This document shows positions 18,038 to 32,616 of a stretch of 64,000 nucleotides of DNA, piece after piece (position 1 is the stretch's first letter; every line of letters starts with the position of its first letter). The notes beneath the pieces are model-generated. The model did not search any database. It was not told the DNA's origin and worked only from the letters and a program-made list of their open reading frames with translations. Source of the stretch: Spirosoma linguale DSM 74 (GTDB lineage Bacteria > Bacteroidota > Bacteroidia > Cytophagales > Spirosomataceae); the NCBI GenBank assembly GCA_000024525.1, contig CP001769.1, positions 4,621,001 through 4,685,000 of the forward strand, read 5' to 3'. Both the position numbers and the translations under genes were made by a program.

Positions 18038-20506
18038 ATGAAATCTGTTAATTTCTCTACAGAAGATAAGGCTTTCATCCATTGGTGGCCCGCATCGCTG
18101 GCTTTACTGTGTGCCTACGTTTGGCGGCCACGGCAAAACTACCTGACTGCGGCCATGACCCTGTTGCTGCCCGCGATTACGTTTGCAACCCACATTGTTG
18201 GCGGGCAGCTTGAGATGGTGACGATCAACAGTACAGTAGGTCATTTTCGGCTGAAAATGACCTACTACTATAACGAAGCTCAAACGGCTAACCTGCCACA
18301 AGCCAGCAGCGATGTCGCCATTTTCCGAAAATCGGATGGTCAGAAAATGGCGGAATTCACCCTCTTAAACAGCACAACGACCAACCGCCCTGCGGTTGCA
18401 TTTATCAACCCAAGTTGTGCACTGAGCAACAACCTTCGTATCAGTCAGGTAATCTACCAGGCCGACATTCAGCTCGACGTAAACACGTACAGTGACCCGC
18501 TGGGCTATTACATGATCCAGCAAAACTGTTGTCGTAACGCCAACATTGCCAACATTAACAGTCCGCAAACAACACCTTTCCTCTTTTATCTGGAGTTTCC
18601 GGCCCTCCAGCGGTCAGGCCAGGCATTCATCAACTCGTCGCCCGTTTTCCAGCCACTCGTTGGCGATTATATATGTGTGGGTAGTCCGTTCACGTTCTCT
18701 ACTGTTGCCGCAGATGCCGACGGTGATGAACTTCGTTACTCGCTGGTTTCTCCCTTGGCCGGGACGTTTGTTGTCAGTTCAAGTACGCCGGTTGTCAAAC
18801 CGGCCCCCTATCCTGAAGTTAGCTGGCGTACCGGATTCGGGCCGCAGCAAGCCATACCCGGCAACCCACCGCTGTCGATCGATGCCCGAACTGGTATTCT
18901 TTCCGTCAAAGCCAGCCAAACGGGCCTTTATGTGTTTTCCATTCGGGTGGAAGAGTTTCGGAACGGGATAAAAATAGGAGAAATTCGCCGTGACCTTCAG
19001 CTGCTGGTTCTGGACTGTCCGACGGCGGCTTTACCAACCCCGGCCATACGTATTCAGAACCGTCCTATAAATACGACAGTAGCCAGCTTATGCACGGGCA
19101 AAATAATTCAACTGGAAACGACCGATAATGCCGCCTGGACGTACCAGTGGAGCAGAAACAGCGTGCCCATCACTGGTGCTAACACCGCCCGGCTAACGGC
19201 CTCCCAACCAGGCGACTATACTGTTACAATTTCACTTGCTTCCGGATGTAGCCAACGGGTAAGTTCGGAAAAAGTGATTCTGAATGATGCATCTGTCGTA
19301 GCGGTACTTACGCACAAAGGCCCTGCGGCCATTTGCAATAGCGGAGGAACAGTTCCGCTAACGGCCCCGGCAGGCTATACCTACCGTTGGTTCCGGAATG
19401 GAACTGAACTACCTAACGAGACAGGAGAAACCCTGACGGCAACCCAAAGCGGACATTATAGTGCATTGCTGTATGACACTGACCAGGGATGCATTATCGG
19501 CACCGACACAATACCTGTAACCCAGCGGCCCGACCCTGTGATTACGCTAACGTCGGCCTCGTCCCTAACCCTCATCTGTCCGGGCGACTCCCTGTTGTTA
19601 CTGGCCAGTGGAGCAAGCAGTTATCAGTGGCAGGTCGACGGTCAGGCGATTGCTTCAGCCAATAAGGCATCGTTTTATGTCAGGGCTCCCGGCGCAATCA
19701 CCGTAACCGGAAACGATACAGCAGGCTGCGAAGCCACCTCCCCTCCGCTCCTGATCGGGCAATCGACTAAACCGGCCATCACGTTCGACTCCATTCCCCC
19801 AATTTGTGGTACCAATGGCCCACTTATTACCCTGAAAGCCAGTCCGGCAGGCGGATTATTTTCGGGCAACGGCGTAACTGGTGATCAATTCAATCCCAAA
19901 ACGGCAGGCATAGGCAGCCATGAATTAACGTACACCATTCAAAATTCGGCCAATTCCTGCGCTACGGGACTCATTCAGCGACAGGTAGACGTAGTTTCAC
20001 CGCCCACCGTTGGCTTACCAGCCGAAATAACCGTCTACAAAGGCAGCAATGTTGATTTAGAACCCATTTTAACGGGCCAACCCATACGGTTCTCCTGGGA
20101 ACCCGGCACGTATTTATCCGCTACTGATCAACCTTATGTACAGGCGCTTGCTCCACAGGATGAAATTCAGTATACCCTGACAGCAACCGACAGTACAGGT
20201 TGCCACGGCTCAGGCACTGTGCAGGTAAAGCTGATCAGGCCTATCTGGATACCGGATGCGTTCAGCCCGAATGGCGATGGGTTGAATGATACCTGGCAAT
20301 TGACAGGGATCGACGACTACCCCAAGGCACAACTTACAGTTTTTAACCGCTGGGGAAACATTGTTTACCATACAGAAAACGGATATAGTCAAGTTTTCGA
20401 TGGAACGTATACAGGTACGTTACTTCCAACCGGGACGTATACTTACATTCTGCGCCCTTCATCTTCCTCTCCCCCATTAAAAGGGCGTGTGTTGCTCTTG
20501 CGTTAG
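18038..20506 (+). CDS. Large secreted Ig-like protein with gliding-motility (T9SS type B) C-terminal domain
   Basis: The 822-aa protein has a hydrophobic segment at about residues 36-50 (LTAAMTLLLPAITFATHIVGG) that could be the signal peptide; the real start may be the ATG at 18155. The middle contains several Ig-like or PKD-like units with repeated WxxNxxxxxxAxxxxLxxxxxGxY patterns such as TYQWSRNSVPITG, TYRWFRNGTELPN and SYQWQVDGQAIAS. The last 85 residues (IPDAFSPNGDGLNDTW, LTVFNRWGNIVY, TGTYTYILRP) form the CHU_C/gliding-motility C-terminal domain used for T9SS export. It is likely a surface adhesin-like protein. Confidence 0.86.
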   Translation: MKSVNFSTEDKAFIHWWPASLALLCAYVWRPRQNYLTAAMTLLLPAITFATHIVGGQLEMVTINSTVGHFRLKMTYYYNEAQTANLPQASSDVAIFRKSDGQKMAEFTLLNSTTTNRPAVAFINPSCALSNNLRISQVIYQADIQLDVNTYSDPLGYYMIQQNCCRNANIANINSPQTTPFLFYLEFPALQRSGQAFINSSPVFQPLVGDYICVGSPFTFSTVAADADGDELRYSLVSPLAGTFVVSSSTPVVKPAPYPEVSWRTGFGPQQAIPGNPPLSIDARTGILSVKASQTGLYVFSIRVEEFRNGIKIGEIRRDLQLLVLDCPTAALPTPAIRIQNRPINTTVASLCTGKIIQLETTDNAAWTYQWSRNSVPITGANTARLTASQPGDYTVTISLASGCSQRVSSEKVILNDASVVAVLTHKGPAAICNSGGTVPLTAPAGYTYRWFRNGTELPNETGETLTATQSGHYSALLYDTDQGCIIGTDTIPVTQRPDPVITLTSASSLTLICPGDSLLLLASGASSYQWQVDGQAIASANKASFYVRAPGAITVTGNDTAGCEATSPPLLIGQSTKPAITFDSIPPICGTNGPLITLKASPAGGLFSGNGVTGDQFNPKTAGIGSHELTYTIQNSANSCATGLIQRQVDVVSPPTVGLPAEITVYKGSNVDLEPILTGQPIRFSWEPGTYLSATDQPYVQALAPQDEIQYTLTATDSTGCHGSGTVQVKLIRPIWIPDAFSPNGDGLNDTWQLTGIDDYPKAQLTVFNRWGNIVYHTENGYSQVFDGTYTGTLLPTGTYTYILRPSSSSPPLKGRVLLLR

Positions 20507-20915
20507 CCTCAATTACACATAACGTCTCAAATGCTATAATGCGATTACCTGGTTACTCTTTGTAAATGATATAGCTGATTTATAGCGTTAATGACCTTCA
20601 AATAAATTTATTTTGATAGCACCTACTTAAGGGCATTATTAGTAAATTTAATATACACAAACTTTACAGTAATTTACTTAGCGGAAAAACTCATAGAATA
20701 ATTATATTTATTGTATAAATCATATATATATACCCCTAGTTTGATCACAAGAAATCCCTATACATTTGCTTTATATCTATCCTATAGCTACGAAAATCAC
20801 CAAATTATTAACTTATTGTATTATAAATTACAGAATAAAGTAATTAATAATATACTCGATCAATCTGCATTCTTAATCCAGTTTAAATCCATAATTAGTG
20901 TAAAACGTAACAAAT
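20507..20915. other. AT-rich intergenic region
   Basis: About 400 bp clearly richer in A and T than the genes on both sides. An open frame at 20711-20989 overlaps the start of the next real gene and has no recognisable composition or motif, so it is treated as chance. The region probably holds the promoter of the beta-helix gene. Confidence 0.6.
20740..20768 (+). promoter_or_regulatory. Candidate Bacteroidota promoter for the beta-helix gene
   Basis: TTTG at 20740-20743 and TACATTTG at 20761-20768 match the -33 (TTTG) and -7 (TAnnTTTG) boxes with a 17-nt gap, slightly shorter than usual. It would give a leader of about 140 nt before the ATG at 20916. In AT-rich DNA a chance match is possible. 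Confidence 0.4.
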
Positions 20916-22523
20916 ATGAAGTTTGTACTAACGTCGATTTTATTTGTAATTTCTCTCACCTACACAGTTGCCCAGAGTTGCGATTGTGACATTACCATCT
21001 CAAAAGCAGCCATGTATGATGGCGATGCACTGGACTACAAACCTGGCCAGACCATTTGTATTAAAGCTGGCAACTACCCCTATCTCTACTTTAAAAATAT
21101 AGTAGGAAAAAGCAACAAACCCATTACGATCATTAACTGTGGAGGGCTCGTTACGGTCGGCACCTCGACTGGCACAAACGGCATCCAGTTCTACGACAGC
21201 AAGTACGTTAAGCTTACCGGCTCGGGCGATGACCGCTACAAATACGGCATTAAGCTCACTAAAACCCCCAGCGGAGCATCGGGCATTAACGTAACAAGCT
21301 TTAGCTCCGACTTCGAGATTGAGCGGGTCGAAGTCTCGGGTACCGGATTTGCCGGGATCATGATCAAGATGGACCCTACCTGCGATCCAGCCACCTGGCG
21401 GGGCAACTTCTCGATGTACAACATCAAGATACACGACAACTACGTACACGATACCTACGGCGAGGGGATGTATATCGGTAACTCGTTCTGGAACAGCGGC
21501 ATTACCAAGACCTGCGATGGGGAGAGTCAGGTGGTTTATCCGCACAACATTTATGGTCTGGCCATTTACAACAATCTGGTCGAGCGCACCGGTGCCGAAG
21601 GCATACAGTATGGCTGCGCTCCAGAGTATCGGGTATACAACAATGTGGTGAAAAATACCGGTATCTCTCCGTTTGCCAAGTACCAGAACAACGGCATTCA
21701 GGCGTCGGGGGGCGTGTCGGGCCGACTATACAATAACGTCGTACAGAATGTAAGCGGCAACGGTATTATTATTCTTGGCCATACAGGGACGAACATTATT
21801 TATAATAACCTGGTCACGAATATTGGCGGGATAGGTGTTTTCTGCGACAACCGGCCCGGAACTCCCGCTGGCAACAGCATTATATTCACGAATAACACAC
21901 TGGTTAATTGCGGACAGGAAGGATTTGCGCTGTATAACAAGCTGGATAAAAGCACACTGGCCAACAATGCGGTGATTCAGACAGGGTCGGGTAAATTAGT
22001 AGCTACGCTGCCCGGAGTTCAGGTAACGCAGACAGCCAATTACTACGAAGCGACATTAGGATCGGCCCAATCGAACGGACTATTCGATGACGACTTTAAG
22101 CCGGTATCTGGCTCTCCGCTCATTGACAAAGGTGTCAATAACGGCTATTGGGGTGTTAAGCAGGATCTCGATGGCAAAAGTCGCCCAAAAGGAAAGAGTA
22201 TTGATATTGGCGCTTATGAATTTGAGCCGGGTGGCGGCCGACTGGGCGCTGACCTAGGAGGTGTAGAAGCAGGCGTTCGGGAGGTGTTATCGTTTCCTTC
22301 GCCCTGTGTCAACGAAGTGTTTCTCAAGCTGACCGGCTATGAACTAACCATTTCTAAGGTGACTATTTACACTGTTGATGGCAAGCCGGTTATGAACGTG
22401 GCCCCTGCTACTCTAAGCGATGAGGTCCGGTTAGAAACGGAGTCTCTGGCAACGGGTGTCTATGTGTATAAAGTAGTCACTTCAGATCTTAAGGTGTTAC
22501 AGGGCCGATTTGTGAAACAGTAA
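20916..22523 (+). CDS. Secreted parallel beta-helix protein with T9SS sorting domain
   Basis: The 535-aa protein starts with a signal peptide (MKFVLTSILFVISLTYTVAQ). Residues of about 60-420 contain the repeating turns of a right-handed beta-helix, rich in Asn and Gly: IYNNLVERTGAEGIQYG, VYNNVVKNTGISPF, LYNNVVQNVSGNGI, IYNNLVTNIGGIGVF. This fold is common in polysaccharide lyases and related enzymes; no catalytic site is assigned. The last 80 residues (SFPSPCVNEVFLKL...GVYVYKVVTSDLKVLQGRFVKQ) are a type A sorting domain. It may act on extracellular polysaccharide, possibly the polymer encoded upstream. Confidence 0.88.
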   Translation: MKFVLTSILFVISLTYTVAQSCDCDITISKAAMYDGDALDYKPGQTICIKAGNYPYLYFKNIVGKSNKPITIINCGGLVTVGTSTGTNGIQFYDSKYVKLTGSGDDRYKYGIKLTKTPSGASGINVTSFSSDFEIERVEVSGTGFAGIMIKMDPTCDPATWRGNFSMYNIKIHDNYVHDTYGEGMYIGNSFWNSGITKTCDGESQVVYPHNIYGLAIYNNLVERTGAEGIQYGCAPEYRVYNNVVKNTGISPFAKYQNNGIQASGGVSGRLYNNVVQNVSGNGIIILGHTGTNIIYNNLVTNIGGIGVFCDNRPGTPAGNSIIFTNNTLVNCGQEGFALYNKLDKSTLANNAVIQTGSGKLVATLPGVQVTQTANYYEATLGSAQSNGLFDDDFKPVSGSPLIDKGVNNGYWGVKQDLDGKSRPKGKSIDIGAYEFEPGGGRLGADLGGVEAGVREVLSFPSPCVNEVFLKLTGYELTISKVTIYTVDGKPVMNVAPATLSDEVRLETESLATGVYVYKVVTSDLKVLQGRFVKQ

Positions 22524-22551
22524 GCCAACACCAGCAAGACGCACAATAAAC

Positions 22552-22605
22552 AAAATCTTCGGGGTTCGGGAAATGTATACGTTTCCTGAACCCCGAAGAT
22601 TTTTT
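22552..22605. terminator. Strong intrinsic terminator between convergent units
   Basis: A stem of about 22 bp pairs 22552-22573 with 22582-22603 around an 8-nt loop, with one G-T mismatch. The arm contains CTTCGGGGTTCGGG and its complement CCTGAACCCCGAAG. T-runs occur at the end on the + strand, and an A/T-rich end exists on the other strand, so it can serve the + strand beta-helix gene and the minus-strand cas unit. Confidence 0.88.
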
Positions 22606-22688
22606 AATTCCTGTATGGTACGATTAAAAAAAGATAGCTAATGAGCATCCTTTCCAAAATTTCAATTCCTTTCTGGTACGATTAATGG
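22601..22688 (-). CRISPR. Two-repeat, one-spacer mini CRISPR-like array after cas5
   Basis: Two related 30-nt copies lie at 22659-22688 and 22601-22630. Read on the minus strand both contain TAATCGTACCA...GGAATT; the first ends GGAATTGAAAT, close to the ATTGAAAC end known from type I-B repeats, and the second ends GGAATTAAAAA. A 28-nt spacer (22631-22658) sits between. The array starts about 48 nt after the cas5 stop, in the same direction, and runs into the terminator at 22552-22605. Only 22 nt (22606-22627 and 22664-22685) are shared with two or three mismatches, and the outer bases differ, so the array is degenerate. The assignment relies on neighbouring cas genes and repeat-like sequence. 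Confidence 0.62.
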
Positions 22689-22736
22689 GTAATTCCAAAT
22701 TTACCAAAAAACCCTGTATAACTTCAATACAAAAGA

Positions 22737-23576
22737 TCACATAAGCTGTGCATACGAATTCGTTTGATTGAGCTGGTATAAATTCGCCAGTTGAGTGGGC
22801 GCTTTGATCAAGTAATCTGTGTACGCGAAGTTCACCAGATCATACTGAAACAACTCTTCATTAAAACCTGCCGGTAATCGTTCGAAGTAGATATAGCTGC
22901 CTTTCTGATTAGACATGTCAACTAAATCAAGTTGGTCGCTTTCTCTCGTCATTGACTTTCGGTCGGTCTTCAGACGCTTATCAAATAGTGTCACCAGCTC
23001 AAAAGACTGAGTTGGCCTTGTTCGGTCAACCTCATATTCGTTTACATTATCCCACCAGGCCGTAAACTCATTTTTTCCCAGGTAAGGTATAAACTCGGCT
23101 TCATGCTGTCTTATACGAGCGGCTAATCGAGACTGCAACTCGTCGGCCTGATCGAGAAGTACAAAAACCCGGTATGCAGGGCACCTCAGTGTATTTTCGT
23201 GTACAATGAGAGTTCCATCGGCATTGGCATAACCAACGGTATTTGTATAGGTGATTGCCACCTTCGTGAAGCTTCCTCGCTCATGGTTAAGTGGTGCAAT
23301 ACCGACTAAAACCGACTTCAGCAGCGTGTAATATTGGGGCCATTGGCCTTTCTGCTGGTGCCCTTTTAGACCGGCTATAGCACCCATAATACCCAACAGA
23401 GCAGGCTTATGAAGCATGTTGTACGAATACTGAATTCCTTCGTTAACATCCGGCTTACGAAAAAAGCCAAAGTCGGCCTGCAAATCGAAAGACAGTAATT
23501 CTTCCCGGCGCTTCTTTTCTAACGATCTGGAAGACAATCCCTTTTCCATCGACTTAATCATGATTTTTGTACTCAT
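22737..23576 (-). CDS. cas5: CRISPR-associated Cas5, type I-B
   Basis: The 279-aa protein carries the Cas5 beginning LLSFDLQADFGFFRKPDVNEGI, followed by YNMLHKPALLGIMGAIAGLKG, the pattern in which a Cas5 N-terminal RAMP strand leads to the phrase PxRTALLGLIGAILG in type I-B proteins. Cas5 caps the 5' handle of the crRNA and touches Cas8 and Cas7 in Cascade. The start overlaps the stop of cas7 by 4 bp (ATGA), supporting coupled translation. The C-terminal third is less typical. No cas3 or adaptation gene follows; instead the mini array and terminator come next. Confidence 0.85.
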   Translation of the reverse strand: MSTKIMIKSMEKGLSSRSLEKKRREELLSFDLQADFGFFRKPDVNEGIQYSYNMLHKPALLGIMGAIAGLKGHQQKGQWPQYYTLLKSVLVGIAPLNHERGSFTKVAITYTNTVGYANADGTLIVHENTLRCPAYRVFVLLDQADELQSRLAARIRQHEAEFIPYLGKNEFTAWWDNVNEYEVDRTRPTQSFELVTLFDKRLKTDRKSMTRESDQLDLVDMSNQKGSYIYFERLPAGFNEELFQYDLVNFAYTDYLIKAPTQLANLYQLNQTNSYAQLM

Positions 23577-24496
23577 GGGTTCAACTCCAGGAAGACGGCA
23601 CTACTGAGCGCACCGATCACCTCCGATACGGTAGGGTCGTAATAAAGCTCAATAGTTTCAATCTGTTTAGCCACCGAAGGCCGTTCCAGGATTTCTGTAA
23701 CCCTGGACAGATCAATCTTTCGATCTTCACCTATCCGAATCAGGTCAACGAAAGAGGGCAAAACCAGCATAGAGCCTTCCTTGAGCTGCACCCATAACAT
23801 CAATTCGTTTTCTGTGCCCACTTTAGCTGCCGAGTCGTAGAGAGTAGCCCCCTGCGTCAGGGCTTTTTTGACTCTGGCTATGTCCTCTTCACTAATCGAT
23901 TTCCCACCACATAATTCGACAAGATCGCTGCTGTTGTGCGGATTTAACGAAAAACTATGTACGTAATGACCCTCTTTTAACTTAGACTGCGTACCCAGTG
24001 AACTCATCGTAGACTCGGCACTGCTTACGTTAGGATTCCGGAAAGGCGTCATGATCTGTTCAAAGTAGATAACACCTTCAACAAACCGATTGACACCATG
24101 AGTTACCTGCAAAGGACCGTGAATTGACAAACTGGTTTTGCCGGCATACGTCCCGCCAAACAGGCGAACATCCAGGCATTCGAATAGATTTCGGGCTACC
24201 GTTCGGCGCAGTTGAGCGTCTTTTTCCTTAGGATATGTACCAAAATAGTGTTCGTAACTCTCGTCCAGCGTTCTGGGCTGCAATTCCGAATTGAGCGTTT
24301 TCAGGTAAAAAATTTTCTCACCGGGGTATACCTTTTTAAAGTAATTCCGTATGGTATATTTCAGGGCTTTATCCGTAGCATAAATAGTCCCGTCCGGTAA
24401 AGTGCGCGGCTGATGAGTGAAATCGGCATTGTAATTAGAGTTAACAGACTTTATAATGACACACCCGAATACACGGTTTGAAAAAAAGTTTCCCAT
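23573..24496 (-). CDS. cas7: CRISPR-associated Cas7, type I-B (Csh2 family)
   Basis: The 307-aa protein shows the Csh2/Cas7 layout: VFGCVIIKSVNSNYNADF near the N-terminus, DKALKYTIRNYF, the signature CLDVRLFGGTYAGK, and SIHGPLQVTHGVNRF, then EGHYVHSFSLNPH. Cas7 subunits line up along the guide RNA and form the backbone of Cascade. Length is normal for the family and no frame disruption is seen. It is 63 bp downstream of cas8b and overlaps cas5 by 4 bp, giving the order cas8b-cas7-cas5 seen in type I-B operons. Confidence 0.9.
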   Translation of the reverse strand: MGNFFSNRVFGCVIIKSVNSNYNADFTHQPRTLPDGTIYATDKALKYTIRNYFKKVYPGEKIFYLKTLNSELQPRTLDESYEHYFGTYPKEKDAQLRRTVARNLFECLDVRLFGGTYAGKTSLSIHGPLQVTHGVNRFVEGVIYFEQIMTPFRNPNVSSAESTMSSLGTQSKLKEGHYVHSFSLNPHNSSDLVELCGGKSISEEDIARVKKALTQGATLYDSAAKVGTENELMLWVQLKEGSMLVLPSFVDLIRIGEDRKIDLSRVTEILERPSVAKQIETIELYYDPTVSEVIGALSSAVFLELNP

Positions 24497-24559
24497 AACA
24501 GGGTTTATAGTAAGAGACTATTAACTGGCGAAGCTGGCCCATAAAAATTTGTAGCCACT

Positions 24560-26449
24560 TCAATTCCCGCGTGAAAAGAACGTCGGGCTGAAGTATCCAG
24601 CAAGGATAAACACATATAGCTTTTTCAAATCAACCCGTTTATCAAAAGCCATCAACTCACGCATCAGGTTAGCAACCCTATTCCTTTTCAGATTGGCCGG
24701 GCGTTCTACTTCATGCTTATGCTTAAGAAATAAGCGCCCTATCTCCTGCTTGAAGAGCTCAATATCTGTTTTTTGAACAAAGGTTTCCAGAGCAGCGTGT
24801 GAATCGTCGGAAGAGTTACTTAAACTCATTAAATAATCAATTATCTGCCCCGAAACAAACGCAAACTCGTATTCATCCTCCAGCGGAATACGTTCAAAAC
24901 TATCCGCAATCCGCAGCGTTTTTTCCGTTAATGAATCAAGTTTATCTGGCATATACAATCCGTTAAAATTCTCATTATTGACATCAAAAAAATGATTGAC
25001 ACTAAAAAGAATATTGAGTTTTTCTTTTATTTGTTTATCTCTCCTGCATTTCAAATCATCCTGAAGTGTAGAGACAAGCATATGACAGAAAGCAGGCCCC
25101 TTTATAGCATCATGTTTTGATTTAAACACAAAATCATAAATAGATTTCCTATACGTTAACGCGCTAAGATACGTATAGGTAAGGTGATGCGAGTTAGACG
25201 TGGCAGAAACTATAAAATCTTCTGTTTTCAAATCACCGAGAATATTCTCCGACTGCATATTCTTATGACTGATCAAGGGCATAAAAACGACATCTAACAG
25301 TTGAAATACGTTATTCAGACGAGGGTATTTCTTCTGTTTCCTAGATATTGTTAATACGCCCATTATATTTTTAATGTCCAGCCAGTTTTGCTTATTATAT
25401 TCATCCCATATGTAGTAATCAAACTTACTGACGAAATCAAAATCCTTTATTTGACCCTGTTGGTAGTATAAAAGGTAATAATTGGAAAGGCCAGTATCAG
25501 AGCTCATATAAAGATCCGTTATAAGCTGCTCGTACGACTTACGCTGTGCCGGCGCCTTACGTGCTTCTTCTTTGAAAAGGCTCAGAACGGTTCTGCATAG
25601 CGCTGCGCCCGACGCTTCATCGGAAAACGTGAAGATGGGCAATGGCCTCGGCAAAATATTACGGTCTAGTATTTTCTGAGCTTCAAATATTGTTTCAGCA
25701 AATTCGTGCGTTACAGAACCATTAAACAGAAAGGTAGCCGTCTGGTGCTTTAAAAAAGGCTTCTCTTCATTGAATCCGTTTTTGAAATTGCTAACTCCAA
25801 TAGATTCTCCATGTACAGATGGCAGCTTACGGTTAAATAAGTACTCTTTCAGGTAGGCAGAATAAGCCTTTTTATAAACTGCCAATGGCAGATCCAAGTG
25901 CAGTATTATGTGAGCGTCTTCGCTAAGTTTGTCAAACCCATCAATGGTAGTAAGGAACTGCTCAAACGTAGTCCAGGAGTGTAAATAATCCTGAAGCCAA
26001 TCAGCATATTTATAAAACTCATAGTCAATCAATGTCTTGGCCTTTTTAAAATAACGTGGCACTCGCTCATTGATCTTTACTTTATCTTTTTCAATATATT
26101 TTGACCCGCCGGTTAATGACTTTTTTTTAGTAGCAAAGCAAAACGGCGAAACTGTTAATATCCCCTTTTGCGGCAGGTCAAAGCACTTTTGATAGAATGG
26201 TTTTTTTTCAAAATCGAGCGTCCAGCTTACTTCCTGAATTTCTGCACACCGAATCAAAAAATCAGAAAGATTACCGGCTTGTTTTCGGCGGTTGTATACT
26301 TCATAGTCAACGCCGGATAAGCGCGCACCGGATGCACCATCAGCGAAGTCAACCTTTACCAGTATATTTAGTCCTTCTTTAGGTTGTATACCAATTCGTT
26401 TAAACTCTGGATCAAGCACCTGAGCAAAACTGGAAAGTTCTTTAAGCAT
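24560..26449 (-). CDS. cas8b: CRISPR-associated Cas8b-like large subunit (Csh1/TM1802 family)
   Basis: The 629-aa protein starts MLKELSSFAQVL, as many Csh1 proteins do, and has PQKGILTVSPFCFATKKKSLTGG in the region that resembles the N-terminal phrase of TM1802-family large subunits. The rest is poorly conserved, as usual for Cas8. Six Cys residues are visible but no CxxC pair, so the zinc finger found in many Csh1 proteins appears to be absent. The identification rests mostly on size and position before Cas7 and Cas5. Cas8b normally recognises the PAM and recruits Cas3; no Cas3 is encoded in this window. The gene is visibly richer in A and T than its surroundings. Confidence 0.75.
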   Translation of the reverse strand: MLKELSSFAQVLDPEFKRIGIQPKEGLNILVKVDFADGASGARLSGVDYEVYNRRKQAGNLSDFLIRCAEIQEVSWTLDFEKKPFYQKCFDLPQKGILTVSPFCFATKKKSLTGGSKYIEKDKVKINERVPRYFKKAKTLIDYEFYKYADWLQDYLHSWTTFEQFLTTIDGFDKLSEDAHIILHLDLPLAVYKKAYSAYLKEYLFNRKLPSVHGESIGVSNFKNGFNEEKPFLKHQTATFLFNGSVTHEFAETIFEAQKILDRNILPRPLPIFTFSDEASGAALCRTVLSLFKEEARKAPAQRKSYEQLITDLYMSSDTGLSNYYLLYYQQGQIKDFDFVSKFDYYIWDEYNKQNWLDIKNIMGVLTISRKQKKYPRLNNVFQLLDVVFMPLISHKNMQSENILGDLKTEDFIVSATSNSHHLTYTYLSALTYRKSIYDFVFKSKHDAIKGPAFCHMLVSTLQDDLKCRRDKQIKEKLNILFSVNHFFDVNNENFNGLYMPDKLDSLTEKTLRIADSFERIPLEDEYEFAFVSGQIIDYLMSLSNSSDDSHAALETFVQKTDIELFKQEIGRLFLKHKHEVERPANLKRNRVANLMRELMAFDKRVDLKKLYVFILAGYFSPTFFSRGN

Positions 26450-27312
26450 AATTAATTACATATTCAGCCAGCATAAAGAATGGCTACTCAACAGTACACG
26501 CCAGCCTTAGTAGAACTAACACGACGGTCGGCTATTGATCACATTCTTTTCTTAACCCTGACACATCTTAGTATCGTAGCCAATAAACAGGCATTTTTCC
26601 GGTAATTAATGATTGGCAAAAAATACCAAATTTTAAATTCGCTTTGTTATATATACCAGTAACCAAAACCATAAATAACGACAGCTACCCGTCCAAAAAA
26701 TAGGTATTCCCTCTACTTTTCACAGCTCAATAAACTGTTACGTCTAGCAATTCTTTTAACATTTATAAAAGAATTTTGTGTAATAAAACTTTATTTATCC
26801 TTAAATAAGATATAGTTCATTACCTAAAAACTAATTCATGTTCAATATTAAACCCTGATGCATTTCACAACAATTATTCGTTGACTTATTTATTGTATAG
26901 TTTCTTTTTTCAACTAAAGATAAACTTATAATATTTCGTAACTTTTATCTGTTTATCAAGATACGTTGTCATTACTACTTCACTTGTAACCAGATATATC
27001 AATTTTATTGTAAGTAATGTTAATACCACTTACCGAGAGGTATACTCTAGTATGTACATATACTTATAATAGCTGATTATTCTCTTTACTAGTTACAGGG
27101 TAGTTCCCTAAAGAGGTGTTCTTAAAGTAGATAACGAATTAACAAACTGTTACTAATCCTAAGCCAATCCACCTTTTATTATGTTAACCATTAATTCATT
27201 TGCAACTACCCCTAACGGAAGTGAAGTTGTAAGACAGCTTTACAGGGTATTCGCAACGAATATCGGGCTTGAATTATATTTATGAACCACTTACTGTATA
27301 ACCTCAACGCTT
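26450..27312. other. AT-rich stretch without convincing genes
   Basis: About 860 bp of very AT-rich DNA upstream of cas8b. No coding frame longer than a few dozen codons is convincing on either strand, and no CRISPR repeat, tRNA or insertion sequence end was recognised. The cas8b promoter should lie in the low-coordinate part. The composition suggests acquired or decaying DNA. Confidence 0.6.
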
Positions 27313-27579
27313 ATGACTATTTCTCGTGCTTGTTTCGATCGCCAACCCTTATTCATTCGGGAAGGAGCTTTACGCCTTTGGGGAGTACCGCTAGCTCATC
27401 GAGTTGACGTTTGTCGGGATCGCCAGCTATACAGTTTTAATGATTTCTTCGCGGAACTCTGCTACGACAAGAATGATGGTAGCCTAACATGCGTCTGTAC
27501 GTTTACCAGACCTCAGCGCCTGGAGCCCTATTTGGAACAAGTTAATTTGGACAAGTTAGCCGACTTCAAGCCCTTGTAA
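27313..27579 (+). CDS. Small protein of unknown function
   Basis: An 88-aa frame (MTISRACFDRQPLFIREGAL...) with mixed, soluble composition and four Cys residues. No signal peptide, membrane segment or family motif is seen. Its GC content is higher than the AT-rich DNA just upstream, which favours a real gene. It points toward the inverted-repeat element at 27601-27741, which may end its transcript. Function not recognised. Confidence 0.45.
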   Translation: MTISRACFDRQPLFIREGALRLWGVPLAHRVDVCRDRQLYSFNDFFAELCYDKNDGSLTCVCTFTRPQRLEPYLEQVNLDKLADFKPL

Positions 27580-27600
27580 CTACTGGCTAATTAATTGCAA

Positions 27601-27741
27601 CATGAGTATCCCGAATTTTCGTACCCCTAAAGTTGGCCTTTTTGGTAGCCTTATAGAAGTTTACTGGCTGGCGGATCACCCACCCGGCTCATGCGGAGCC
27701 GTAAAGCGAGTCTGGTCTTCTAAAATTCGGGATGACTCATG
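27601..27741. repeat. 141-bp element with 19-20 bp terminal inverted repeats
   Basis: CATGAGTATCCCGAATTTT (27601-27619) pairs with AAAATTCGGGATGACTCATG (27722-27741), with a single unpaired G. A smaller hairpin CGGCTC/GAGCCG lies inside at about 27692-27708. The element fills the gap between the 88-aa gene and the stop codon of the hydrolase gene on the other strand. It has no coding capacity. It may be a miniature inverted-repeat transposable element or a structured RNA/terminator; no clear target-site duplication was found. Confidence 0.7.
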
Positions 27742-28647
27742 CTAATGGGTTAAAAGCGCTTTCAATGCTGGCGGAACCGAAGGGCAGGTCTGAACACCAT
27801 GCCCTAAAGTTGGCAAAACAGTTATGCTTACCAAAGAAGGCAAGTATTGAATAGAACGCTCCAGTGTAGCCTGGTAGGAATACAACTTGTCCTGAGCGCC
27901 CAGCAGCATATAGAGCGGAGTCTTAATTGCCAGTAGCTCTTCTTTAGGCAAGGCCAGATGCCACCAGGAAGTAAGTTGAAAATTAGAGAAAGCGTTTATC
28001 TGAAAATCGATCAACAACTTTTCCTGAGCAGATGGTATGTCGGTATACGTCGGGCTAAAAACGACCTCCCGTAAAAAAGACTGCACAGATTCATGTGATG
28101 GCGCGTGATAAGCCAGCCAATAGTACCTCAGCAGATGGAAAGAAAGCGTAAGTGACTGGATACCTGCCGGATTTATTAGGATGGCTCTCTTTATTAGCTG
28201 GGGAGCCATCCGGCATACTTTCAGGCTAATCAGTGCTCCTAGTGAATGAGCAATTAAGGTAACGCGTGCAACACCGAGTTGCTCCAGTACCTGCTGAGCC
28301 CAAATCCCGTATTCATCTGTATTGATGCTCGGGCTTAAACCGTCACTAAAACCCGGCTGCCCATTAATTTCGATGAGACAAAGTCGATAGTTTTTACTTA
28401 AACCGGCCAGACTCCGATTGATAGCCCAGGTTAAGGCACTAGAATTAAATCCAGGGAAGAATACCAGGGTTTCGTACACCCGTCTTTTTGGCGTATGAAC
28501 CCATACCACGGTTTTTCCCCAGGTCGTCAGTACTGTAACTGACTCAAATATGAGCCCGTTTGAGTCCTGAACATGACGCGCCCACATGTCATTAAACTCG
28601 GTAGCTTGCTGAGGATTTTTATAGCGCGAGTAATTAGCTGAACTCAT
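27742..28647 (-). CDS. Alpha/beta hydrolase
   Basis: The 301-aa protein has a complete alpha/beta hydrolase triad: nucleophile Ser in LIAHSLGALISL, Asp in LLGAQDKLYSY and His in LPTLGHGVQ. FFPGFNSSALTW is the oxyanion region. There is no signal peptide, so it should be cytoplasmic. Substrate cannot be predicted; thioesterase, esterase and haloperoxidase-like members look alike. The gene is separated by about 220 bp from the DUF151 gene and is probably not part of the hydrogenase operon. Confidence 0.85.
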   Translation of the reverse strand: MSSANYSRYKNPQQATEFNDMWARHVQDSNGLIFESVTVLTTWGKTVVWVHTPKRRVYETLVFFPGFNSSALTWAINRSLAGLSKNYRLCLIEINGQPGFSDGLSPSINTDEYGIWAQQVLEQLGVARVTLIAHSLGALISLKVCRMAPQLIKRAILINPAGIQSLTLSFHLLRYYWLAYHAPSHESVQSFLREVVFSPTYTDIPSAQEKLLIDFQINAFSNFQLTSWWHLALPKEELLAIKTPLYMLLGAQDKLYSYQATLERSIQYLPSLVSITVLPTLGHGVQTCPSVPPALKALLTH

Positions 28648-28870
28648 AAATAAGTGGCAAAGTGGGTAGCTGAATTTGATTACCCATGCCGATGTATACT
28701 ACTGTTTATCGACCGAAAAGGCCTAATAATATCCTATTAATTACTAAACATCCTTAGCTACATAATTAGTATATTCTCTCAGCACGATCGATAAACACAA
28801 AAGCTTACACTAGCTACCCACATAGCAGCTAACCGACGAACATCAACAGTGTGTAGAATTGTGTCCTGTA

Positions 28871-29422
28871 TTACTTTAAGCCCTTGCGCCGGTCGATGGC
28901 GTCCCGGACGCGTGCGGCACTTTCGTAATCTTCTTTTTTTATGATTTTTGCCAATAGTTCCTCCAACTCAGCTAGTGTGTACTCGGCATAAGATCCTTTT
29001 TTATCGCGGGTTTTATCATCGACGAAATAGCCCGACATGTCTATAACGTCAGTCGTAGCACGCAGTGGACAATTGAAGCGAACGGCCAGGGCAATGGCGT
29101 CGGAAGGACGGGCATCCAGGGCGAGACGTTCTCCCGAAGTAGTCAGGAGACTAATGGTAGCATAAAAAATCTCATCCTTAACATGGGTAATAATGGCCTC
29201 TTTCATGATAACTCCCGTTTGCGTCAACGCCTGATAAAACAGATCGTGCGTAAAAGGCCGTAAGGGCTGCATTTTTTCCATGGCGACGGCAATAGCCTGG
29301 GCTTCGGAGGCCCCGATAATCAGCGGGATCCGTCGTTTTCCAACAACATCCTCCAGAATCAATGCATAATTTCCCGGCTTCGAGATGCTTTCCGAGAGGG
29401 CAATAATCGACAAATCAATCAT
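28871..29422 (-). CDS. DUF151 bifunctional nuclease-like protein with UVR motif
   Basis: The start at 29422 (MIDLSIIALSES) is preferred; the longer frame from 29476 adds residues that belong to the overlapping upstream gene. The first about 130 residues are the DUF151 fold: GKRRIPLIIGASEAQAIAVAME, RPFTHDLF and LDARPSDAIALAVRFNCPL. The C-terminus has a UvrB/UvrC-like helix pair (LEELLAKIIKKEDYESAARVRDAIDRRK). Members are known as bifunctional nucleases and are common in Bacteroidota. It overlaps the 77-aa gene by 8 bp and closes the hydrogenase-linked unit; a functional tie is not known. Confidence 0.87.
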   Translation of the reverse strand: MIDLSIIALSESISKPGNYALILEDVVGKRRIPLIIGASEAQAIAVAMEKMQPLRPFTHDLFYQALTQTGVIMKEAIITHVKDEIFYATISLLTTSGERLALDARPSDAIALAVRFNCPLRATTDVIDMSGYFVDDKTRDKKGSYAEYTLAELEELLAKIIKKEDYESAARVRDAIDRRKGLK

Positions 29423-29648
29423 CCTGTTCAGGTGCTCCGTTCCGTTGAATAAACTGGCAAAGCTCACCCATATCATCGAAAGGTGAAATCACAAAGCCAT
29501 CCACACTTAGTCGGTATAAATCCCGCTTTTCAACTTCGATCTGGTACCCATTGGTCAGGGTAATATGCTTACCCGTATGGTGCTGCACCGGAATCTTCAT
29601 TTCGGCCAGTGCGTAAAGCACGAAATCCGTTTCGTCGTAACTCTCCAT
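29415..29648 (-). CDS. Small conserved-looking protein of unknown function
   Basis: A 77-aa acidic protein (MESYDETDFVLYALAEMKIPV...) without signal or membrane segment. Its stop overlaps the start of the DUF151 gene by 8 bp, which argues that it is translated. It lies about 140 bp downstream of the nickel transporter gene, separated by an imperfect inverted repeat. No family recognised. Confidence 0.65.
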   Translation of the reverse strand: MESYDETDFVLYALAEMKIPVQHHTGKHITLTNGYQIEVEKRDLYRLSVDGFVISPFDDMGELCQFIQRNGAPEQDD

Positions 29649-29657
29649 TGGGGAAGG

Positions 29658-29776
29658 GTTAGTGTTTATTAGTGATTCGTTATTGAGTAATTGATTACTG
29701 GTTATTAGACTGTTAGCAAATTATCGCTAGCCAGCAGCCGAATAACTATTAACCTAATAACTAATCACTACTAACC
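29658..29776. repeat. Imperfect inverted repeat in the hydrogenase-linked unit
   Basis: The AT-rich left part (about 29658-29700) is partly complementary to the right part (about 29743-29776), for example GGTTAG with CTAACC and TAGTGATT with AATCACTA. It uses the same short words (GGTTATT, TTAGTGATT) as the perfect repeat at 32620-32770. Confidence 0.5.
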
Positions 29777-29785
29777 AACAACCAA

Positions 29786-30412
29786 TTACATTGCGTTTTC
29801 ATAAATAACCGTGGCACCAAGGCCAATACAAATCACCGACGATACTACAACCAGCGTAGTGCGAACCAATGGGTTGGTTGCCATGCGAACAGAAAACGGT
29901 ACGCTGAATGCGCTAGCTGCTACCATCATACCCGCGATGGAGCCAATACCAAACAGCCCGAGGTAGATCATGCCTGCGCCTGTGCTCTTTATTTGCGTCA
30001 GCACAGAGAGGATCAACGCGCCACTACCCGCCAGCCCATGTATCAGGCCAACTCCGTAAGCTAATCGGTGCGCGTGTCCTTCGTGGACACGGCTATGTGC
30101 ATCCGCTACTTCCCGGAATACCGTCAATTTGTAGAGCCGCAGGCCACCCAGTGTAACGAGCATCACGCCAACCCCCGCTTCGAGATAGCGAAAGTCACCC
30201 GCACGAAGGGCAAACTTTCCCAGCATAAAAATACTGCCGATCAGCAGAATGGTGGACGTATGGCCCAATCCCCAGAAGACGCCGTCTTTTAAGGCCAGCC
30301 AGATATTGTTTCGCCGGGTGACAATGGTACTGACAGCCACTAAATGATCGGCTTCAAACGCGTGGGCAAAACCAACGCTTAGGGCCAGAAAAAGGGGAAA
30401 TACCGTTTGCAT
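29786..30412 (-). CDS. Nickel/cobalt-type transporter (NiCoT/UreH-like)
   Basis: The start at 30412 (MQTVFPLFLALSVGF) is chosen; the longer frame from 30598 would overlap the NHL gene by almost 180 bp. The first helix contains HAFEADH, the HX4DH signature that binds nickel in NiCoT permeases. Further helices include GLGHTSTILLIGSIFML and GLIHGLAGSGALILSVLTQI. Six helices in about 209 residues fit a small permease. Placed directly after the hydrogenase maturation genes, it most likely supplies Ni for the [NiFe] centre. Similar proteins have been annotated as HupE/UreJ or UreH. Confidence 0.82.
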   Translation of the reverse strand: MQTVFPLFLALSVGFAHAFEADHLVAVSTIVTRRNNIWLALKDGVFWGLGHTSTILLIGSIFMLGKFALRAGDFRYLEAGVGVMLVTLGGLRLYKLTVFREVADAHSRVHEGHAHRLAYGVGLIHGLAGSGALILSVLTQIKSTGAGMIYLGLFGIGSIAGMMVAASAFSVPFSVRMATNPLVRTTLVVVSSVICIGLGATVIYENAM

Positions 30413-30419
30413 GTCGGGT

Positions 30420-31559
30420 TTACATAAGGTCAATTGAGGGGACCGGCAGCTTGCCAATAATAATCCGATGGTTACCGGTATCGGCAATGACGAGCTGGTT
30501 GCTATCGGTGCTAATCGAAAATGGCCAGTACAACTGCTTATCCGTACCGAAACGTGTGTTGGCATTCTCACTGCCCGTTGCGAAACTGGCATGACCAATC
30601 AGATTATCCGCCGGTTGGTTGTGTTGCGTTGGTACCGCATCGAACCACAGAATCCGGCTGTTGCCCGTGTCGGCGATGAGTAAGCCGTCGCCATAAAAAT
30701 GCACGTCGTAGGTCCAGCTTAGTGTTTGCTGAGCTGGAAATAGACCGTACTGATTTTGCCCGTTACTCTCAAAATCAGCCTGACCGATCAGAACATCGGC
30801 TGGTTGCTGAGGGGCTGTTCGCCAGTCTTGCCAGAGCAGCGTACGGTAATATTGTGTATCAGCCACGGCCATCTGCCCTTTTGGACCAATTTTAACAGAA
30901 TACGGCCAGATCGGATTAGCCGAATCGTAATCCCGCTCCGTAAAACCCGATTGACCAACTACGGCCGTAGCCGCAGCAAACGACTCGGTCGGGATCTGGT
31001 CGTAAAACAGCACCCGCCGATTGCCCGTATCGGCAATCCAGAGCCGCTGCCCGTCGGAGGTTACGCCATACGGCCAGTTTAACGTTCGTTCGGTTGGAGA
31101 GGCTCCAATGCCTTTGGTATTGGGCTGATTGTGGCTAAAATCTACCTGCCCCAGCACCACATCAGCCACTTGGCCGTGCTGCGTGGGAAATTGATTCCAG
31201 ATCAGAACGCGGTGGTTCCAGGCATCGGCCACGATGAGCCGTTCGCCATCCGACCACAGTCCCGATGGGTACTGCAACGTATCGGCATCAACGCTGCCCC
31301 CCGCATTTCGGCCGGTTTCGACCGCGTCTACCTGCCCCAGCACCACATCCGGTTCAGCGTATTCCATAGTGGGCATCCGGTTCCAGATAAAAACACGATT
31401 CTGCCCCGTATCGGACACAATCAGTCGCCCATTTATTGTCCAGACACCACGCGGAGCCAGAAACGGATGACCCGAACTTCCCCGAAAAACGGTATTTAAT
31501 TCCACCAATGGGGAACGTGTGGGTAAGGATTGGGTAAGATTGGGTGTTGTCAGTAGCAT
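30420..31559 (-). CDS. NHL-repeat protein linked to the hydrogenase operon
   Basis: The start at 31559 (MLLTTPNLTQSL) lies 4 bp after the hypE stop; the upstream start would overlap hypE. The roughly 380-aa protein consists of about six NHL-type beta-propeller units with repeated phrases: LIVSDTGQNRVFIWN, LIVADAWNHRVLIWN, LWIADTGNRRVLFYD, LLIADTGNSRILWFD, LVIADTGNHRIIIG, each followed by a segment such as PADVLIGQADF. No signal peptide is seen. Such propellers usually bind proteins. Placement inside the hyp run suggests a role in assembly or in contact of the hydrogenase with partners; this is inference. Confidence 0.82.
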   Translation of the reverse strand: MLLTTPNLTQSLPTRSPLVELNTVFRGSSGHPFLAPRGVWTINGRLIVSDTGQNRVFIWNRMPTMEYAEPDVVLGQVDAVETGRNAGGSVDADTLQYPSGLWSDGERLIVADAWNHRVLIWNQFPTQHGQVADVVLGQVDFSHNQPNTKGIGASPTERTLNWPYGVTSDGQRLWIADTGNRRVLFYDQIPTESFAAATAVVGQSGFTERDYDSANPIWPYSVKIGPKGQMAVADTQYYRTLLWQDWRTAPQQPADVLIGQADFESNGQNQYGLFPAQQTLSWTYDVHFYGDGLLIADTGNSRILWFDAVPTQHNQPADNLIGHASFATGSENANTRFGTDKQLYWPFSISTDSNQLVIADTGNHRIIIGKLPVPSIDLM

Positions 31560-31563
31560 ATAC

Positions 31564-32616
31564 TTAACAAATTCTCGGTAATTGCTCACCGACGAGCATA
31601 TTGACCACCCGACGACCACCGATTCGGCTTGTCAGCACGACCTGACCCGGATGTTCCGCTACGACTTCACCGATTATTGCAGCCGATTGCCCATATTCCA
31701 GTGTTCGTAGTTTCTGGACAAAGGCGTCCGCTACTTCGGGGGCTACAATCGCCAGAAAAACGCCTTCGTTGGCAACATAAAGTGGGTCCAGGCCCAGCAA
31801 TTCGCAGGCTCCGGCTACTTCGTCGAGTACCGGAATGGCGGCTTGCTTCAGGTCGATTCCCAGGCGGGTTGCACCCACGTTTCGGTCGCGGGCAATTTCG
31901 TTCAGGACGGTAGCCACGCCACCACGCGTCGGGTCACGCAGGAGATGAACAGCGGGGCCAAACTCATCCAGCAGGGCCAGAACGGCATGATTCAGCGGGG
32001 CGGTATCGCTGGTCAGGGTGGTTTCGAACTCCAGTCCTTCCCGCACCGACATGATCGCCATACCATGCGTAGCAATGTTGCCACTGACAACTATTTTATC
32101 CCCCACCCGAACGTTTTTTACGCTGATGTCGGCCTTAGGATGCAGTTCGCCGATGCCGGAGGTGTTGATAAAAATCTTGTCGCCTTTTCCCCGTTCGACA
32201 ACTTTGGTATCGCCCGTCACGATTTGCACACCGGCCCGTTCAGATGCCCCCTTTATGCTGACCAGAATATCCCAGAACTCGGCCATAGTCAGGCCTTCTT
32301 CCAGAATAAATCCCAGTGATAAGTATTTGGGGACAGCCCCGCACATCGCCAGATCGTTGACGGTACCGTTAACGGCCAGTTCGCCAATGTTGCCGCCGGG
32401 AAAAAATACGGGTGAGATAACATAGCTATCGGTCGTGAAAGCCACGCGCCCCGTCAGGTTTAGTAAAGCTCCGTCGTGGTGTGTATCGAGCAATGGGTTG
32501 CTGAGCAGATCGAAAACACCCGCTTCGAGCAATTTATTGGTCAGAATGCCCCCGCTGCCGTGCCCGAGCGTAATGATGTCGAAGTCCAGTTTCGGCATTG
32601 GACAGTGAAGTTGCAT
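31564..32616 (-). CDS. hypE: Hydrogenase maturation protein HypE
   Basis: HypE turns the carbamoyl group on its C-terminal Cys into a thiocyanate, the source of the CN ligands of the [NiFe] centre. The protein shows ITLGHGSGGILTNKLL, DTHHDGALL, FTTDSYVISPVFFPGGNIGELAVNGTVNDLAMCGAVP, DPTRGGVATVLNEIA and the required C-terminal end PRIC. The length (350 aa) is normal. An internal ATG at 32598 (MPKLDFDII) is an alternative start. It is preceded by a 150-bp palindromic gap after hypD. Confidence 0.94.
   Translation of the reverse strand: MQLHCPMPKLDFDIITLGHGSGGILTNKLLEAGVFDLLSNPLLDTHHDGALLNLTGRVAFTTDSYVISPVFFPGGNIGELAVNGTVNDLAMCGAVPKYLSLGFILEEGLTMAEFWDILVSIKGASERAGVQIVTGDTKVVERGKGDKIFINTSGIGELHPKADISVKNVRVGDKIVVSGNIATHGMAIMSVREGLEFETTLTSDTAPLNHAVLALLDEFGPAVHLLRDPTRGGVATVLNEIARDRNVGATRLGIDLKQAAIPVLDEVAGACELLGLDPLYVANEGVFLAIVAPEVADAFVQKLRTLEYGQSAAIIGEVVAEHPGQVVLTSRIGGRRVVNMLVGEQLPRIC

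Follow-up and report, generated by a model that had tools for sequence, protein, structure and literature searches.

A 64,000-nucleotide (nt) stretch of Spirosoma linguale DSM 74 (GenBank assembly GCA_000024525.1, contig CP001769.1, positions 4,621,001 to 4,685,000 of the forward strand; hereafter the window) encodes a type I-B Cascade that has no Cas3 of its own and is followed by a single guide between two repeats. It is probably a domesticated complex with one fixed guide, retained after the loss of immunity as a stand-alone, RNA-guided DNA-binding repressor of the CreA/CreR kind. This suggests that an immunity weapon has become a gene-control (or self-addiction) device. The genes, the selection on them, their co-inheritance, the lack of an own cas3 and the conservation of the guide were all observed directly. 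Three genomes were compared: that of the window (G000), that of S. fluviale DSM 29961 (G009; locus L023) and a Spirosoma metagenome-assembled genome (MAG) that is 99% complete (G029; locus L022). The features of the unit are as follows.

24560-26449, minus strand: cas8b (629 amino acids, aa), the Cascade large subunit; intact open reading frame (ORF), PADLOC Cas8b at 1e-61
23573-24496, minus strand: cas7 (307 aa), the backbone subunit; intact ORF, PADLOC Cas7b at 3.2e-43, Pfam PF05107 (Cas_Cas7) at 4.5e-35
22737-23576, minus strand: cas5 (279 aa); intact ORF, NCBIfam TIGR02592 (Cas5h) at 2.3e-33
22659-22688, minus strand: repeat 1, whose last 8 nt (ATTGAAAT) are the 5' handle of the guide and are identical in all three species
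22631-22658, minus strand: guide (spacer) of 28 nt, TTTGGAAAGGATGCTCATTAGCTATCTT
22601-22630, minus strand: repeat 2, whose last 8 nt differ from the handle in each of the three
22554-22601, no strand assigned: inverted-repeat terminator between the mini-array (minus strand) and a beta-helix gene (plus strand)

A Cascade without its own Cas3

The window holds the type I-B effector set of Cas8b, Cas7 and Cas5, and the three genes belong to a Bacteroidota type I-B family. A first-pass annotation of the bare sequence had described them as intact, with ATGA coupling between cas7 and cas5, and the ORFs, the profile matches and a 4-nt overlap at 23573-23576 (ATGA) bear this out. PF05107 has a single match in the whole window genome, which is the window cas7. 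The mini-array is complete, with two repeats and one spacer; it lies 48 nt behind cas5 and is closed by the inverted-repeat terminator. L022 and L023 differ in sequence here but are likewise predicted to form a long hairpin.

The three genes, mini-array and hairpin occur with the same neighbours in the window, in L022 (Cas8b 94%) and in L023 (Cas8b 82%), and finding the unit in the same place in three species makes it more than chance. Our GTDB survey covered the best 80 of 122 matching loci, of which eight were on contigs without cas5 and six ended directly behind cas5, leaving 66 assessable. A cas3 gene follows cas5 in sixty-four of these, and the two exceptions are the Spirosoma loci L022 and L023; the absence of cas3, which the first-pass annotation had proposed to check in relatives, holds in the clade and not in the other assessable relatives. 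Within Spirosoma, this Cas8b family is present in six of thirty-six genomes, three being the cas3-less clade and three having cas3 behind cas5. The three cas3-less proteins form one clade of the Cas8b tree (support 1.0) on a long stem (0.67). Nearest to them are P0003-P0006 (support 0.999), among which P0005 and P0006 come from cas3-bearing systems.

Elsewhere in the window genome, the only cas3 above the cut-off and the only cas1 sit in a complete I-B locus 2.65 Mb away, which belongs to another subfamily, with a Cst2/DevR-type Cas7, and whose array has forty-two repeats. It is the sole complete I-B locus of this genome, and a genome search for one nearly identical to the window genes found none. 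The only cas3 above the cut-off in S. fluviale is likewise of that other subfamily, and the counterpart locus shows cas8, cas7, cas5, cas3, cas6 and cas1 with an array. The MAG has no cas3 above the cut-off; its five weaker matches fail to reach that threshold, and so do weak matches of eight of fourteen control genomes. A cas3 of the window Cascade's own type was not found above the cut-off in any of the three genomes, nor was an own cas1 in the window genome, where the sole Cas1 belongs to the other locus. Searches for cas2 and cas4 were made around L022 and L023 only, not genome-wide.

The earlier view that cas3, cas6 and cas1 are not nearby stands, all three being outside the window, but the system is not devoid of cas6. 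The window genome has one cas6, encoded in the orientation of cas5 and 26.3 kb downstream of it; the MAG and S. fluviale have relatives of this gene at the same 26.3 kb from cas5, so that cas6 is co-inherited in all three species. This same-genome gene covers the Cas6 requirement of type I-B, in line with the suggestion that the unit borrows parts from elsewhere in the genome. A search for the mini-array's repeat family with up to three mismatches gave two matches in the window genome, two in the MAG and one in S. fluviale, all inside mini-arrays; the window genome has no multi-spacer array of this family at that stringency. Many other Spirosoma genomes carry long arrays.

Conservation of the genes and the guide

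Synonymous distances between the window and S. fluviale are 1.0-1.6 for cas5, cas7 and cas8b and 1.2 for cas6. The ratio of nonsynonymous to synonymous change (dN/dS) of the four Cascade genes is 0.07-0.12 between these two and 0.05-0.16 between the window and the MAG, values that indicate purifying selection on all four. For three neighbouring genes the ratio is 0.07-0.11 against S. fluviale and the MAG, a similarity which argues that Cascade is in use.

Cas8b has also changed at otherwise conserved positions. Among seventy-one columns with at least 90% conservation in fifty-six other sequences, seven are altered in all three clade members, and none or one in P0003-P0006. The control triplets are not clades, so these are per-sequence counts only, with twenty-two of the fifty-six other sequences displayed. 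The changes would fit an altered role after the stem, and we infer that they may reflect a lost contact with Cas3.

The handle in repeat 1 is intact at 8/8 positions in all three species. The last 8 nt of repeat 2 match the repeat of the complete locus L024 at 6/8, 5/8 and 4/8 positions; no further guide needs them. Over the first 22 nt, repeat 2 matches the L024 repeat at 14, 14 and 16 positions and repeat 1 at 17 in each species, and between the window and S. fluviale repeat 2 is identical at 19/22 front and 6/8 rear positions. In having one guide, an intact 5' handle and diverged repeats on both sides of the guide, the mini-array resembles CreTA/CrePA.

The guides of the window and S. fluviale share nt 1-5 and 7-11 but not nt 6 and 12, and over nt 13-28 they are identical at 8 of 16 positions. 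With identity at 208 of 374 fourfold sites between the two, the chance of 10/10 seed identity is about 0.003, and that of handle and seed together about 3e-5. We noticed this pattern ahead of the comparison with published CreA pairing. In Haloarcula, CreA requires exactly nt 1-5 and 7-11, with 6 and 12 dispensable, and its repression depends on the cascade genes and is independent of cas1-4 (PMC8501985).

The guides are also short, at 28, 28 and 30 nt in the three species versus 34-38 nt for ninety spacers in the arrays of L024, L161 and L163. Work on Haloarcula reports that plasmids with a self-targeting spacer transformed more efficiently, by more than 3 (the passage gives no unit), once the spacer had been shortened from 36 to 28 bp, and that repression of the target gene was still seen with spacers of 28 and 30 bp; with a working system, however, primed adaptation persisted at 28-30 bp and disappeared only at 20-24 bp (PMC10989794). 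Neither guide, searched by exact match in 22-nt forms, was found in viral contigs, and no Cas8b relative was confirmed in these contigs.

Guides and targets in complete relatives

Four complete relatives (L024, L161, L162, L163), examined singly, carry a handle and guide on the strand divergent from cas8b. The seed of each guide is repeated just upstream of cas8b, at 10/10 positions in three loci and 9/10 in one, always behind a TCA protospacer-adjacent motif (PAM), and the order on this strand is seed-matched target, guide, then one or two ORFs. Shuffled guides reached 9/10 in 46/2000 trials for L024, whose rate is higher because low-complexity guides match more easily, and in 2-8/2000 for the other three.

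Scanning seventy-two loci with no PAM imposed gave 10/10 pairs in six, each with a TCA site (7/8 displayed sites), compared with 0/360 shuffles and none in the opposite orientation; at 9/10, TCA was present in eleven of nineteen pairs. With TCA imposed and a wider span, 10/10 pairs were found in 7/72 loci and pairs of at least 9/10 in 10/72 (shuffles 0/720 each). The majority of the loci have no guide-target pair by these scans. The scan sought both elements in one upstream stretch, and its empty result for the window clade is no test of the actual guide.

The genes behind the guides differ. L161 has DUF6934 and L162 a DUF3800-like gene; in L024 and L163 the guide is followed by orphan ORFs, accompanied by short partners. 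L030, L038 and L067 show no obvious ORF of this sort behind the guide. The guide-plus-ORF arrangement is the layout of Cascade-repressed gene modules, any toxicity of the products here being putative. The relatives thereby provide a rule for finding guides in Bacteroidota I-B loci: a handle, a seed of nt 1-5 and 7-11, a TCA PAM and a site upstream of cas8b, with differing genes behind.

The DUF3800-like ORF is at L162:11152-11931, and a similar-looking ORF upstream of cas8b in L037 was recognised by eye; DUF3800-like ORFs behind guides may be new Cascade-repressed effectors. In L024, additional repeats of the same family (8221-8380, minus strand) lie between cas6 and cas8b, adjoining the guide.

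Target search and ORF88

Two features opposite cas8b bear on the target of the window guide.

27313-27579, plus strand: ORF88, gene of an orphan 88-aa protein, divergent from cas8b and conserved in three species
27353-27366, plus strand: candidate target, a TCA PAM with 9/10 seed positions, the seed beginning 43 nt into ORF88; also in L022

ORF88 has three homologues among 5.77 billion proteins, one in S. fluviale at the same place and two metagenome clusters, and the MAG locus carries the same ORF. It is under purifying selection (dN/dS 0.015-0.087). No convincing family was found for it in Pfam, NCBIfam, PADLOC or PHROGs, and its structure model is unusable (predicted local distance difference test score, pLDDT, of 52).

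In the interval between the hydrolase gene and cas8b, the highest seed match of a TCA site is 9/10 in the window and the MAG, at the ORF88 site, and 7/10 in S. fluviale. Shuffled guides reached TCA with 9/10 anywhere in this interval in 14/5000 trials for the window and 9/5000 for the MAG, and the whole window genome has six such sites, which together make a chance site in the interval unlikely. Given the failure in S. fluviale, the ORF88 site remains a candidate.

Across whole genomes, TTTGGNAAGGA occurs 22 times in the window genome, 19 in S. fluviale and 27 in the MAG, where reversed-pattern controls give 14, 21 and 10. Sites with TCA and seed allowing at most one mismatch overall number 8, 9 and 9 in the three genomes (controls 8, 4 and 6), and among them the ORF88 site alone is notable by its place. 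Besides the guide, four seed sites are common to the three genomes, two in long open frames and two apparently non-coding. We rejected the non-coding pair (one 35 nt upstream of a 316-aa ORF, PAM AGT; the other near a 117-aa ORF, PAM GCC) because the relatives use TCA. The first of these overlaps what we take to be a promoter-like TAnnTTTG, which makes a chance match easy there.

These results bear on a possible, though less probable, alternative in which the unit is an addiction or abortive-infection module: Cascade and guide would silence ORF88, and loss or inhibition of Cascade would release it, following CreTA/CrePA logic. It would explain the survival of exactly cas5, cas6, cas7 and cas8 with one guide. 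The four complete relatives have target, guide and then one or two ORFs divergent from cas8b, and ORF88, an orphan under purifying selection, takes the same position relative to cas8b, with the rarely matched TCA site 43 nt inside it. That site is missing from S. fluviale, however (best TCA site 7/10), and lies in coding sequence instead of a promoter, and ORF88 has neither a known family nor a useful model. Only tentatively, then, can we propose a free-standing Cascade-guide-ORF88 module, in which the immunity of the system has gone, a Cascade with a fixed guide persists only to silence a small orphan protein (or to control one chromosomal gene) and selection on the guide is confined to the seed.

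Mode of action and alternative readings

Under the favoured reading of a stand-alone repressor, Cas8b, Cas7 and Cas5 would assemble with the Cas6 encoded 26 kb away, and the mini-array closing the cas operon on its 3' side would supply one fixed guide resembling a CRISPR (clustered regularly interspaced short palindromic repeats) RNA (crRNA). The complex would bind DNA without cutting it, as its own Cas3 and a long array are gone. Seed pairing (guide nt 1-5 and 7-11) would take place at a chromosomal site beside a PAM, presumably TCA in this clade as well, and transcription there would most likely be repressed, as with CreA/CreR guides. The first-pass proposal of DNA binding instead of destruction fits a Cascade without its own Cas3 under selection in three species, any target and effect of binding being putative.

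Several points weigh against the repressor reading. S. fluviale lacks the 9/10 TCA site in ORF88, so no TCA target is common to the three species. None of the sixty-eight 10/10 seed sites of the three genomes is preceded by TCA, their number is only modestly above the reversed-pattern controls (68 vs 45), and the excess of TCA sites with one mismatch is modest too (26 vs 18). Guide conservation amounts to one comparison because the MAG is too near the window to be independent of it, and the pattern at nt 6 and 12 was spotted before being tested. Repeat 2 is worn at its front as well (14-16/22 against the L024 repeat). P0010 (551 aa, shorter) and P0012 also deviate at nine and six of the seventy-one Cas8b columns. 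Finally, S. fluviale and the window genome retain a foreign-type Cas3.

It is unlikely that the unit is a decaying relic, in which a deletion removed cas3-cas4-cas1-cas2 and most of the array and the remainder is being lost. In favour of it, the mini-array could derive from an array's trailer end, and the gene order is disrupted, with cas6 separated. Yet four genes remain intact in three species at synonymous distances of 1.0-1.6 and dN/dS of 0.05-0.16, and handle and seed are conserved; the reading was already disfavoured.

Equally improbable is continued immunity, with cutting and guides supplied by the foreign-type Cas3 and the arrays of the other I-B locus. That locus is complete in the window genome (forty-two repeats) and has a counterpart in S. 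fluviale, but the MAG has no cas3 above the cut-off, the repeats and Cas proteins of the locus belong to another subfamily, and the clade Cas8b is altered at otherwise conserved positions. Least credible is a pure auto-regulator (CreR) whose guide represses its own cas operon: guides target the region upstream of cas8b in several complete relatives and 8/10 sites without TCA occur there in all three species (window 26827, L022 9622, L023 9385 and 9936), but those of S. fluviale are at other places than those of the window and MAG, and no TCA site above 7/10 for the real guides lies between ORF88 and cas8b in any of them.

Relation to known systems

The window unit is outside immune type I-B, since an own Cas3, an own Cas1 and an array were not found; its mode fits CreA/CreR, and it may or may not belong with CreTA/CrePA, given that toxin and target are putative. 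Among the matches listed in the open-licence PMC literature, the scope of our search, which leaves subscription papers outside, there was no report of a stand-alone I-B Cascade that lacks Cas3 and has one conserved guide. TldR derived from TnpB. It is likewise an RNA-guided system turned transcription factor (PMC13418256), but an unrelated protein, whereas the window unit is a multi-subunit Cascade.

The closest likenesses, as far as the cited excerpts go, are with CreTA/CrePA, which have two diverged repeats around one spacer and pair through nt 1-5 and 7-11 (PMC8501985, PMC12737573); CreTA also requires cas5, cas6, cas7 and cas8 and not cas1-4 (PMC8501985). Known modules adjoin an immune system, whereas the window Cascade has no cas3 of its own or long array, and its toxin and target are putative. 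In CreR, a guide-based autoregulation of cas genes, Cascade uses a crRNA-like guide for binding only (PMC12737573), and comparable guides occur in some complete relatives; the window clade differs in that TCA seed sites between ORF88 and cas8b reach 7/10 at most. In the Myxococcus dev operon, I-B Cas5-Cas7-Cas8 is reported to regulate devI, but dev retains an adaptation module and an array (PMC8730458). The I-E2, I-F4 and transposon-associated type I variants of the 2025 classification share a type I effector, with Cas3 typically lost in I-E2 and I-F4, but bring an HNH nuclease or transposon genes (PMC12669027), none of which is seen beside the window unit.

In the literature we found, described natural gene control by type I Cascades takes place beside immune systems that keep Cas3. 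With only the binding half left in this unit, the control role becomes open to study separately from immunity, and whether Cascades persist for non-immune reasons becomes testable in S. fluviale DSM 29961.

Neighbouring genes and other observations

The surroundings are as the first-pass annotation described, with a beta-helix gene on one side and AT-rich DNA (31% GC at 26500-27299) followed by unrelated genes on the other. ORFs tested in 18038-32616 include beta-helix type IX secretion system (T9SS), CHU_C, hydrolase, bifunctional nuclease, NHL and AIRS proteins, and none of the neighbours that could be assigned to a family has a connection with CRISPR; ORF88, 29415-29648 and 29786-30598 have no family. 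As anticipated, no Tn7-like transposition gene of an I-B CRISPR-associated transposon was present among these ORFs (tns genes were not searched genome-wide). Searching PDB sequences returned nothing for the Cas8b profile or Cas7, and Foldseek alone gave weak matches (best E 0.14).

Upstream of its cas8, the complete I-B locus of the window genome (L020) carries a degenerate mini-array of two repeats, whose end resembles a terminator (L020:4558-4646; G000:C1:7294557-7294645). A site 86 nt further on matches its guide at 8/10 seed positions plus a 7-nt run, and other 8/10 sites also exist in the locus. In the S. fluviale counterpart (L257), a search by the same handle found no such guide upstream of cas8. 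The L020 mini-array is a possible CreR.

Similar beta-helix T9SS genes lie near cas6 (L021:14656-16236) and near Cascade (window 20916-22523), about 26 kb apart, and the pair may hint at how cas6 became separated. Between ORF88 and cas8b, a block of about 120 nt (window 26850-26970) is kept in all three species, and the DNA flanking it is less conserved.

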